Position numbers and translations under genes: made by a program. Below are positions 12,355 through 15,033 of a stretch of 64,000 nt of DNA, piece after piece. Every line of letters begins with the position of its first letter. Positions within the stretch are counted from its first letter, which is position 1. Under the pieces are notes generated by a model. It was not told where the DNA came from. It did no database searches and saw only the letters and a list, made by a program, of their open reading frames with translations. Source of the stretch: Brevundimonas sp. G8 (GTDB lineage Bacteria > Pseudomonadota > Alphaproteobacteria > Caulobacterales > Caulobacteraceae); NCBI RefSeq assembly GCF_902506205.1, contig NZ_LR732816.1, positions 843,975-907,974 on the forward strand. Direction: 5' to 3'.

Positions 12355-13473
12355 ATGCAGCTGACCATCGAACGATCCGCGCTCCTCAAGGCCCTGGGCC
12401 ACGTGCAGAGCGTCGTCGAACGTCGAAACACCATTCCGATCCTGTCCAACGTCCTGCTGTCCGCAGGGCGCGACCGGCTGGCCTTCGCGGCCACCGATCT
12501 GGACATGGAGATGGTCGACGAGGCCGAGGCCCAGGTTCAGGTCGAGGGCCAGATCACGGCCCCCGCCCACACCCTGTATGAAATCGTCCGCAAGCTGCCG
12601 GAAGGCGCCGAGGTCTCGCTGCTCTATTCGGGCGACGATCCGCGCCTGGTCGTTTCGGCCGGTCGGTCGCGCTTCAACCTGCCGGTCCTGCCGGCGGGCG
12701 ACTTCCCCGTCATGTCCACCGACAGCGCCGGCGCCTCCTACGTCATGCCCAAGGAAGACCTGGCCCGCCTGATCGACAAGACCCGGTTCGCGGTCTCGAC
12801 CGAGGAAACCCGCTACTATCTGAACGGCCTTTACCTGCACACGGTGTCGGAGGCTGGCGTGCCCCTTCTGCGCGCCGTCGCCACCGACGGTCACCGCCTG
12901 GCGCTGGCCGAGACCCCGGCGCCCGAGGGCGCGGCCGGCGGCCCCGGCGTCATCGTGCCGCGCAAGACCGTGGATCAGGTCCGTCGTCTTCTGGACGACG
13001 CCGGCGGCCCGGTCGAGGTCACCGTCTCGGCCCAGAAGATCCGCTTCCAGATGGGCGAGGCGTCCCTGACGTCCAAGGTCATCGACGGCGCCTTCCCCGA
13101 CTATCTGCGCGTCATTCCCAAGGGCAACGACAAACAGGCCGACATCGACAACGCCCTGTTCGCCAAGGCCGTCGACCGCGTCGCCACCATCTCGGCGGAA
13201 AAGAGCCGTTCGGTGAAACTCGCCTTCGACAACGACCGGGTGAAGCTGACCGTGCGCAACATGGAGGCCGGCCAGGCCGAGGAAGAGGTCGAGATCGGCT
13301 ATTCGGACGAGCCGTTCGAGATCGGCTTCAACGCCCGCTACCTGCTGGACGTCGCCGGCCAGATCACCGGCGAAAACGCCGCCTTCCGCTTCGCCGACCC
13401 GGCTTCTCCGACCCTGGTCCTCGATCCGGCCGATCCGGGCGTTCAGTATGTGCTGATGCCGCTAAGGGTCTAA
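12355..13473 (+). CDS. dnaN: DNA polymerase III beta subunit (sliding clamp)
   Basis: 372 residues, the normal clamp length, built from three similar domains. The N-terminal IERSALLKALGHVQSVVERR and PILSNVLL blocks and the C-terminal VQYVLMPLRV are diagnostic. The MPLR tail forms part of the hydrophobic pocket that binds polymerase and other partners. The dimeric ring tethers DNA polymerase III to the template and contacts the replication regulator Hda/HdaA in Caulobacterales. It is the second gene of the dnaA-dnaN-recF-gyrB set. A REP-like element begins 10 bp after its stop codon. Confidence 0.98.
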   Translation: MQLTIERSALLKALGHVQSVVERRNTIPILSNVLLSAGRDRLAFAATDLDMEMVDEAEAQVQVEGQITAPAHTLYEIVRKLPEGAEVSLLYSGDDPRLVVSAGRSRFNLPVLPAGDFPVMSTDSAGASYVMPKEDLARLIDKTRFAVSTEETRYYLNGLYLHTVSEAGVPLLRAVATDGHRLALAETPAPEGAAGGPGVIVPRKTVDQVRRLLDDAGGPVEVTVSAQKIRFQMGEASLTSKVIDGAFPDYLRVIPKGNDKQADIDNALFAKAVDRVATISAEKSRSVKLAFDNDRVKLTVRNMEAGQAEEEVEIGYSDEPFEIGFNARYLLDVAGQITGENAAFRFADPASPTLVLDPADPGVQYVLMPLRV

Positions 13474-13483
13474 TCAAGGTATT

Positions 13484-13515
13484 TCCGCTCATCCCGGCGA
13501 AAGCCGGGACCCAGT
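13484..13515 (+). repeat. Left REP-like arm
   Basis: TCCGCTCA followed by the hairpin TCCCGGC-GAAA-GCCGGGA (13492-13509), then a CCAGT-containing edge. A GNRA-type tetraloop on a 7-bp stem and a short conserved head are typical of REP elements in high-GC proteobacteria. Confidence 0.75.
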
Positions 13516-13541
13516 GCTTTCGTTCGTACCGGAGGCTGGCG

Positions 13542-13829
13542 TTGGCGTTCTTCACCTACATCGTCGCCAGTCGTCGCAACGGCACGCTCTATACCGGCTC
13601 GACAGAAGACCTGATCAAGCGGGTGGCCGAACATCGCGACAAGCTGCGCCCAGGTTTTACGAGCCGATATGGCGTGGTGCTGTTGGTCTGGTACGAAACC
13701 CACGAAACGCGCGATGCGGCCATCGTTCGCGAACGCCAGATCAAGGAATGGAAACGGGCCTGGAAGCTGGAGCTGATCGAGCGCAAGAACCCAGCATGGG
13801 CGGATCTGTTTCCAACATTGCTCGGTTAG
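13542..13829 (+). CDS. Small GIY-YIG endonuclease-fold protein
   Basis: 95 residues making up a single GIY-YIG domain of the UPF0213/YhbQ-like type. [20 protein letters not shown] contains the two short strands (FTYIV as GIY, LYTGS as YIG), followed by [11 protein letters not shown] with the conserved Arg and His, then [20 protein letters not shown] with the metal-binding Glu. There is no DNA-binding accessory domain, so it may be a nuclease acting with other factors or on a simple structured target. It begins with TTG, six bases after a perfect GGAGG. It is flanked on both sides by inverted REP-like hairpins and sits between dnaN and recF, where it has no expected role. Confidence 0.88.
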
Positions 13830-13847
13830 ATCGTGCCGAGCAAAAGG

Positions 13848-13879
13848 ACTGGTTCCCGGCTTTCGCCGGGATGAGCGGA
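13848..13879 (-). repeat. Right REP-like arm (inverted)
   Basis: Reverse complement of the left arm: ACTGG edge, then TCCCGGC-TTTC-GCCGGGA (13854-13871) and TGAGCGGA. It ends five bases before the recF start codon, so the arm supplies the recF ribosome-binding region (GAGCGGA). Confidence 0.75.
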
Positions 13880-13884
13880 TAGAT

Positions 13885-15033
13885 TTGAGCCTCACCTCTC
13901 TCACCCTCACCGACTTCCGCTCCTATGCGGGCGCGCGGCTGGAGATGACCTCCGGGCCTGTGGTGCTGCATGGGCCGAACGGGGCGGGCAAGACCAATTT
14001 GCTGGAGGCGATCAGCCTGCTGACCCCAGGCAAGGGGCTGCGCAGCGCCGCCGCCGCCGAGATGGGCCGGCGCGAGCCCGGCGAGGCGACCGGCCGCGCC
14101 TGGGCCGTCATGGTCGAACTGGACGACGAGACCCGTCTGGGCACCGGCGTCCAGACGGCGGGCGCGGCGCGGCGCATCGTGCGGATCGACGGCGAGACGG
14201 CGCAGCCGGGGCGGTTGCTCGACTATCTGCGCCCCGTCTGGGCCACGCCCGAGCAGGACCGGCTGTTCTCGGATGCGCGGGCCGACCGGCTGAAATTCTT
14301 CGACAGGCTGGTCTTCGCCGCCGATCCCGATCACGCCGCCAGCGTCTCCATCTATGAAAAGGCCCTGCGCGAACGGCTGCGGTTGCTGAATGACGCGCAG
14401 GACGGACGCGAGGCCGATCCCGTCTGGCTGGACGCGCTGGAGCTTCGCCTGGGCGAGGCCGGCGCCCGCGCCGCCATCGCCCGCGTCGCCGCCCTCCACG
14501 CGCTCCAGGCCGCCATCGACTCCCGCAGCGACCGCCCCTTCCCCCAGGCAGACCTGGGCCTGGACGGCCCCGCCGAACAGATGGCCGAGGCCGGTGCCGA
14601 GGAAGACGAGATCGCCGCCGCGATCCGCGAGGGCCTGGCCAAGGCTCGCGCCCGCGACGGCGCCGCCGGACGCTCTCTGTTCGGCCCTCACCGTACCGAC
14701 CTGACGGCGCTGCACCGCGAGAAGCAGCGCCCCGCCGCCGAGGGGTCTTCGGGCGAGCAGAAGGCTCTGGTCCTGAACCTGATCCTGGCCCAGATCACCC
14801 GCCTGTCGGATCATGCCGGGACGGTGGCTGTAGCCGGCGCCGCCCGCCCCGTCCTGCTGCTGGACGAGGCCCCCGCCCACCTTGACGAGCGCCGCCGCGC
14901 CGCCTTGTTCGACGAGATCGTGGCCCTCGATCTCCAAGCCTTCATGACTGGCACCGAACGCGACCTGTTCGCGGGCCTGGAAGGCCGCGCCCAGTTCGTC
15001 CGCGTCGCCGAAGGGACGCTGGAAACCGACTAG
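13885..15033 (+). CDS. recF: DNA replication and repair protein RecF
   Basis: 382 residues, an SMC-like ATPase that loads RecA at single-strand gaps with RecO and RecR. The N-terminal [16 protein letters not shown] is followed by Walker A ([19 protein letters not shown]). The C-terminal half has the ABC signature region ([18 protein letters not shown]) and Walker B ([16 protein letters not shown]). The start is a TTG at 13885 with only a weak GAGCGGA before it, contributed by the adjacent REP-like arm. That is unusual and may lower translation. gyrB follows 144 bp later. Confidence 0.96.

Follow-up and report, generated by a model that had tools for sequence, protein, structure and literature searches.

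A REP-framed GIY-YIG nuclease gene in Brevundimonas as the probable enzyme-bearing locus of a two-part REP system

The gap between dnaN and recF in Brevundimonas sp. G8 holds a gene for a small GIY-YIG nuclease framed by two inverted REP arms, and this unit is probably the part of a two-part REP system that carries the enzyme, here a GIY-YIG nuclease. We observe that such genes are associated with REPs oriented tag-outward, that gene-less REP dimers occur elsewhere in the genome, that REP types match the resident nuclease, and that the nuclease has a conserved active site and is under purifying selection. Recognition, cleavage and mobilisation of REPs by the nuclease are what we infer. In the proposed mechanism, the small stand-alone nuclease would recognise CGTC-like REP hairpins that are paired in inverted orientation, tags outward, and would nick or cut at REPs when these are single-stranded or extruded. 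Cutting would let REP dimers of ~125 bp reach new intergenic sites, by copying or by movement, and the gene, framed by its own REPs, would mostly be inherited in place and occasionally move. The enzyme question for CGTC REPs is now directly testable, with a candidate in 116 of 289 alphaproteobacterial genomes. If the proposal is true, the system parallels RAYT/REPIN by convergence, and it gives a role to a nuclease family for which a part in DNA repair had been guessed.

The unit between dnaN and recF and its nuclease

The window analysed is a stretch of 64,000 nucleotides from Brevundimonas sp. G8, in which the analysis confirms the gene order dnaA-dnaN-[unit]-recF-gyrB given in the initial annotation. 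The features of the unit and its surroundings are as follows.

12355-13473, + strand: dnaN, left neighbour (TIGR00663)
13475-13485, + strand: outer left 11 nt, with 2 G here and nearly G-free in 44 dispersed dimers (sequence, dimer comparison)
13484-13879: whole REP/nuclease unit, two inverted arms around one 95-codon ORF in the dnaN-recF gap
13484-13526, + strand: left REP arm with tag CCGCTC, hairpin, CCAG tail and inner extension (inverted-pair search, hairpin fold, genome copies)
13492-13509, + strand: left hairpin, 7-bp stem and GAAA loop (ssDNA folding)
13531-13535, + strand: GGAGG, likely ribosome-binding site, 6 nt ahead of the TTG (sequence)
13542-13829, + strand: GIY-YIG nuclease gene, TTG start, 95 aa (ORF list, PF01541, model, dN/dS)
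13837-13879, - strand: right REP arm, inverted, with one mismatch within the 26-mer in the genome search (inverted-pair search)
13854-13871, - strand: right hairpin, 7-bp stem and GAAA loop (ssDNA folding)
13880-13890, + strand: outer right 11 nt, including the recF TTG, with 1 C here and nearly C-free in other copies (sequence, dimer comparison)
13885-15033, + strand: recF, right neighbour (TIGR00611)

The arms are inverted copies of 43 nt each and are 91% complementary. The outer 26 nt are all alike and 31 of the first 32 are identical, as first described and as confirmed here by the sequence and an inverted-pair search. Folded as single-stranded DNA, each 32-mer forms the 7-bp stem with GAAA loop that had been assigned to it (-9.3 and -9.4 kcal/mol, z -3.96 each). 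Within the window, the 16-nt core of the hairpin is confined to the two arms (up to 2 mismatches), and at least 2 matches were obtained in 2 of 100 shuffles. The tag is CCGCTC ahead of ATCCCGG, and the tails are CCCAG and ACCAG. An eighth stem pair would be A-C or A-A in the window arms; units of the same type (REP1) in relatives (e.g. G074) that end in GGGATCCAG would restore an A-T pair at this position. Rfam gave no match on 13400-13950, and a promoter/terminator scan found none. The right arm stops 5 nt short of the recF TTG (13885) and so supplies the sequence just upstream of recF, which may, as the initial annotation proposed, act as the ribosome-binding region of recF.

The single small nuclease-fold gene with its own GGAGG, also part of the initial annotation, matches PF01541 with 57.2 bits against a cut-off of 22.6. 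NCBIfam returned no match at 0.001 and weak sub-cut-off matches at 0.01, TIGR01453 was matched by 4 of 19 family members far below its cut-off, and PADLOC, run on two proteins, had no match for either. The AlphaFold model is a confident single domain (pLDDT 95.4). A PDB profile search places UPF0213 proteins nearest (1zg2, E 1.6e-6), followed by UvrC and Slx1. Foldseek returns 1zg2 as the sole match below 0.001 (E 2.2e-4), with Slx1 at E 1.6e-2 to 6.9e-2 and the UvrC N-domain matched weakly. By fold, the protein can be likened to the UPF0213/COG2827 proteins (PDB 1zg2, 1ywl), which have the same minimal GIY-YIG fold.

Of 178 relatives, 170 retain all four of the residues Y6, Y17, R27 and E64; we take these Y/Y/R/E residues of the GIY-YIG fold to be catalytic. 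Together with the PF01541 score they place the protein in the GIY-YIG family. The dN/dS of the window gene against two same-site relatives is 0.098 and 0.092, and across 14 family pairs it is 0.04-0.12 in 13 and 0.29 in one. We conclude from the retained active-site residues and the low dN/dS that this enzyme is probably functional and subject to selection.

Association and matching of nuclease genes and REPs

Three matches to PF01541 lie in the genome of Brevundimonas sp. G8, a single contig of 3.32 Mb: the window gene, a second small GIY-YIG gene (L003) and a 661-codon frame, probably UvrC, which has no arms and an inverted-repeat score of 20. The inverted REP pair around L003 is of another type: it has a CGTC tag, a 9-bp stem and a 5-nt loop (measured by eye) and lacks CCA. 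Both small GIY-YIG genes thus sit between REPs of their own type. A search of the whole genome for the window-arm 26-mer, as the initial annotation had suggested, gave 11 occurrences (up to 3 mismatches) against 0 for a backward-read control. They are largely inverted pairs: four pairs of ~125 bp that lack a gene, the pair that encloses the nuclease gene, and a single unit with a diverged partner that the pattern missed and that is visible in the sequence. The second REP type (REP2) occurs 29 times, two of these being the L003 arms, and 10 gene-less dimers were placed among the 29 units. A search for Y1_Tnp (PF01797) in this genome found none, and RAYT-type Y1 transposases are present in 3 of 101 genus genomes.

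The second nuclease ORF (positions 1477-1863 of its locus) reads through the right REP (DPRVKPEDD) into a conserved tail, so that this REP is part of the protein. In the clade of this nuclease (q2) the right REP lies inside the ORF and is followed by a conserved coding tail; the ends of the element and the ends of the REPs therefore differ.

The association of the GIY-YIG gene with inverted REPs is solid and general. Relatives of the window protein occur in 87 of 101 genus genomes, with up to 7 per genome. We sampled 111 loci (L003, L044-L153) among the matches listed, a list that favours close relatives, and set one aside, leaving 110 with full 200-bp flanks. An inverted-repeat score of at least 40 across the gene is found in 87 of these 110, against 0 of 550 dinucleotide shuffles (maximum 28) and 1 of 425 offset windows, which rules out a chance association; 22 loci score below 30 and have no clear inverted pair. 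Inverted repeats around GIY-YIG genes are present in relatives as well, where the initial annotation had called for a search for paired arms near such genes. Seven related GIY-YIG genes (L122, L123, L129, L138, L141, L142, L149) form one flank cluster by single linkage, with scores of 15-20 and no clear inverted pair; this group is possibly a domesticated ortholog.

A class-wide profile search found the nuclease in 116 of 289 alphaproteobacterial genomes and 90 of 223 genera, with up to 11 matches in one genome. The class sample comprises 67 loci (L187-L253) among the matches listed, with the own-genus loci L184-L186 left out and two set aside for incomplete flanks. Scores reach 40 in 30 of the remaining 65 and 34 in 34 (offset windows 4/255), and 31 lie below 34, without a clear inverted pair. 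A further set outside Brevundimonas by record title, from Caulobacter, Phenylobacterium, Marinicaulis, Amorphus, Enterovirga, Rhodoplanes and others and including many MAGs, used 42 of 80 loci, 40 of them with full flanks; Brevundimonas loci, L322 (Bordetella) and L326 (Alpha proteobacterium) were dropped. Here 22 of 40 score at least 40 and 26 at least 34 (controls 0/157), leaving 14 below 34. With a generic detector of CGTC REPs, both arms are seen tag-outward in 42 of 110 genus loci (controls 0/211) and 17 of 66 class loci (controls 0/127), and both arms tag-inward in 4 and 5 loci, respectively (controls 0 and 1). REPs of the other orientation are found near genus nuclease genes upstream in 22 of 110 and downstream in 13 of 110.

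REP numbers also follow the nuclease. The median number of REP1 units, the window-arm type, is 29 in the 45 genomes with the matching nuclease (q1 type, a match at E 1e-33 or better) and 6 in the 56 without it (p 7.6e-10, uncorrected for phylogeny; G041, just outside the threshold, counts as 'without' though its arms are REP1-like). For REP2 the medians are 19 (n=22) and 6 (n=79), with p 1.7e-5, again uncorrected for phylogeny and with a grouping based on sampled loci only, the 'without' group including some carriers. The 14 genomes without any homologue have medians of 2 (REP1) and 1 (REP2). The cross comparisons are significant too, with p 1.2e-4 for REP2 against the q1-type nuclease and p 0.03 for REP1 against the q2 type, which implies that part of the effect is general. 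Some genomes without the matching nuclease are rich in REP1 (G088 65, G002 59, G068 50, G045 40).

With the nuclease arms set aside, 156 of 213 dispersed REP1 units in eight genomes share the arm stem/loop type of the resident nuclease, and 24 of 40320 reassignments match as well. The mean own-type fraction is 0.645, compared to 0.174 for the types of other genomes. The match is good in G026 (35/35), G050 (51/54), G074 (13/14) and G000 (7/9), partial in G062 (26/37, from 39 listed of 100 units, 2 of them arms), G009 (14/32) and G064 (10/27), and absent in G016 (0/5). G001 and G081 (units listed in part) and G013 (ambiguous arms) were left out, as were G008, G043, G056, G071 and G092, which have no matching nuclease type. 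Arm and nuclease sequences co-diverge as well (Mantel r 0.85, 1999 permutations, p 0.0005; 80 elements with a score of at least 40 and a left arm of at most 60 nt), also for pairs from different genomes and different sites (r 0.835). In genomes with several nucleases, the nearest outside relative has the right REP type in 36 cases and the wrong type in 7, with one tie. Since arms and gene are physically linked, this co-divergence shows co-inheritance only and by itself is no proof of recognition; the matching of REPs elsewhere in the genome is the stronger test. The earlier idea of a REP element with its own GIY-YIG nuclease, comparable to REP/RAYT, is well supported, and neither of the outcomes that the initial annotation had named as refuting it was seen: the arms are dispersed, largely as inverted pairs, and REP number and type track the nuclease.

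Sites and dispersal of units and dimers

REP1 pairs in the sampled loci come in two sizes: 33 of the 80 span 120-169 bp and 47 span 360-459 bp, in proportions that reflect sampling, many loci having been chosen for the gene. The longer class leaves room for the gene. REP1 dimers are found at many scattered positions, a few of which are shared by two genomes; the 44 dimers placed in five genomes are scattered, with at least three site pairs common between genomes (by eye).

The nuclease genes mostly keep their sites. Nuclease pairs with an identity of at least 80% lie at one and the same site in 130 cases and at different sites in 35. With both flanks required, the 111 loci fall at 48 sites, the largest being dnaN-recF with 18 loci, 15 of which have an inverted-repeat score of at least 40. 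At each of two sites, nucleases belonging to different clades (39-44% identity) are found, and every one is paired with a REP type of its own. Of the 29 dnaN-recF junctions that could be read (30 genomes), 11 contain the gene, so that what we see at this locus is patchy presence together with arms rather than a nuclease conserved without them. This junction is a variable spot in the replication gene cluster: across the 29 readable junctions (L154-L183) the gap ranges from 26 to 1266 bp with different inserts, and G008 has an apparent REP end only. At the L003 site the nuclease is present in 10 of 20 readable junctions (30 looked at). One locus there (L270, in G002) has a 258-bp gap in which the REPs and the 3' tail are kept and which has no nuclease match; it looks like a remnant.

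The murC-murB gap contains clean dimers in 10 of 30 plus 6 of 20 genomes (L284-L313, L437-L456); those with spacing measured by eye end 7-8 nt before murB. They represent six stem/loop types in different species, a recurrent landing site, and the two commonest types have unrelated interiors. The six types and unrelated interiors suggest repeated insertion or replacement. In other species the gap holds unrelated small genes, some of which, we presume, resemble a VapBC-type pair.

An exact empty site was found at none of dnaN-recF, the L003 site and murC-murB, as the surroundings of all three are too diverged; absent states at these junctions include 3 bp in G034 and 26 bp in G061. REP1 pairs tested over many offsets gave no target-site duplication. 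Weak signals at two offsets, amounting to 6% and 2.5% of 80 pairs that are not independent, are not taken as real, given the many offsets tried. The initial annotation had described the unit as an inserted cassette and had proposed to define its boundaries from dnaN-recF junctions; junctions with and without the gene were recovered, but none gave exact insert boundaries. A self-mobile cassette is at odds with genes that stay mostly at fixed loci, with the lack of a clean empty site or target duplication, and with the right REP inside the coding sequence in the q2 clade. The part of that interpretation that stands is the REP element with its own nuclease, and the inserted cassette, as stated, does not. 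By analogy, the locus appears closer to a RAYT, single-copy and vertically inherited, than to a hopping cassette.

Known REP systems and alternative explanations

According to the accessible portion of Di Nocera et al. (2013; PMC3733652), CGTC REPs are mainly alphaproteobacterial, mostly form head-to-head dimers and 'apparently lack a dedicated transposase', for which the authors proposed early enzyme loss or use of a broad transposase spectrum; CGTC REPs with transposase genes are described as few fortuitous associations. They are defined there by an unpaired CGTC tag (variants TGTC, CCTC) 5' of the stem, a stem of 8-9 bp, a loop of 4-5 nt and a CCA tail. Judged against that text, the REPs described here are alike in the unpaired end tag, the GC-rich stem opening with AT, the 4-5 nt loop, the CCA tail, the mostly opposite-orientation pairs and the alphaproteobacterial hosts. 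The L003 pair has the strict tag, CGTC, and a 9-bp stem; the window arms have a CGCTC tag (CCGCTC in full) and a 7-bp stem with 4-nt loop, and do have the CCA tail and tag-outward pairing. Because their tag and stem length fall outside the strict definition, we call the window arms CGTC-like rather than strict members. Two later papers list this work among their references: the words 'nuclease' and 'transposase' are absent from the accessible text of PMC12306157, and 'GIY' from that of PMC6006769. Titles and abstract openings among the open-licence PMC matches listed contain none that links GIY-YIG to REPs.

According to the accessible text of PMC8049555, RAYT genes occur in single copy, are inherited vertically and still replicate REPINs, although at a very low rate; REPINs are more numerous in RAYT-bearing genomes. 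The present system is like REPIN/RAYT, so described, in that an enzyme gene is framed by inverted REPs, short REP pairs are dispersed, REPs are more numerous where the enzyme is present and the enzyme is mostly inherited in place. It differs in that the enzyme is a GIY-YIG nuclease (PF01541) and not a Y1 HuH transposase, PF01797 being absent, and in the GCTC/CGTC tag instead of GTAG. By this analogy, the GIY-YIG nuclease is most likely the enzyme that CGTC-like REPs seemed to lack, with a RAYT-like role and an unrelated fold.

The nuclease might instead serve the host in DNA repair or in clearing DNA structures (UvrC/Cho-like or Slx1-like), cutting the cruciforms that REPs form at replication forks; the REPs would then be its substrates and regulators, and something else would spread them. 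Slx1 is a eukaryotic enzyme that acts with Slx4, and we know of no repeat association for it. It is structurally similar to the window model and is a precedent for cutting branched DNA (PDB titles). The model, which matches UPF0213 proteins, Slx1 less well and the UvrC N-domain weakly, is in line with such a function, as are genes that stay in place under purifying selection. In the accessible portion of PMC1839093, three small Caulobacter crescentus COG2827 endonucleases, one with an SOS box, are proposed to be UvrC-like enzymes of DNA repair; these differ from the proteins studied here in that no REP association is mentioned in that portion. We nevertheless regard a repair function as unlikely, in view of the patchy presence of the gene (87 of 101 genus and 116 of 289 class genomes, up to 11 per genome), the type matching between genes and REPs, and the rise in REP number with the matching nuclease.

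A homing-like process or gene conversion, in which the nuclease cuts REP sites without the element and repair copies the REP or the whole unit in, would homogenise rather than transpose. GIY-YIG enzymes are known from homing, a few family members have the sub-cut-off TIGR01453 matches mentioned above, and different REP types and nuclease clades occupy the same sites (murC-murB and two nuclease sites). This process is nonetheless quite improbable given the scatter of the 44 dimers across five genomes, with at least three site pairs shared between genomes, and the unrelated interiors of the G/GAC and C/GAG dimers at murC-murB. That a RAYT or other transposase mobilises the REPs, with GIY-YIG genes nearby by chance or hitch-hiking, has very little to recommend it. 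REPs elsewhere are moved by RAYTs, as the accessible text of PMC8049555 has it, but Y1_Tnp, the family surveyed, turned up in 3 of 101 genus genomes, the own genome not among them, and a RAYT driver was rejected accordingly. Chance is further excluded by the shuffle, offset-window and CGTC-detector controls, and the few REP-transposase associations described in the accessible portion of PMC3733652 are fortuitous.

Tentatively, the two-part reading of the unit might be extended: stand-alone GIY-YIG nucleases could be the dedicated enzymes of the CGTC REP superfamily, which would make this a second, independently evolved REP/REPIN system, the enzyme-bearing unit of ~395 bp would rank with the smallest autonomous mobile elements, and recognition would extend ~11 nt past the hairpin tag into a G-free flank. 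Across the ten positions outside the left tag, 44 dispersed REP1 dimers, not all independent since three site pairs recur between genomes, have G at 30 of 440 positions compared to 446 of 1232 further out (p 1.8e-37); on the right side C is found at 35 of 440 compared to 474 of 1232 (p 2.4e-38). These are the 44 of 45 dimers that could be placed (L397-L436, L004, L007, L009, L013), L012 having failed the pattern. The depleted stretch has a sharp edge at ~11 nt, and the remaining flank is not conserved. Left and right flanks have no complementarity signal (2.91 of 10 compared to 3.12 shuffled). The stretch may be a target preference or part of the recognised sequence. Ten REP2 dimers of the own genome have G at 11 of 100 positions on the left (94 of 280 further out) and C at 5 of 100 on the right (72 of 280), and 44 nuclease elements, many at shared sites, have G at 32 of 440 on the left and C at 19 of 440 on the right. 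The window copy of the flank is imperfect, with 2 G on the left and 1 C on the right.
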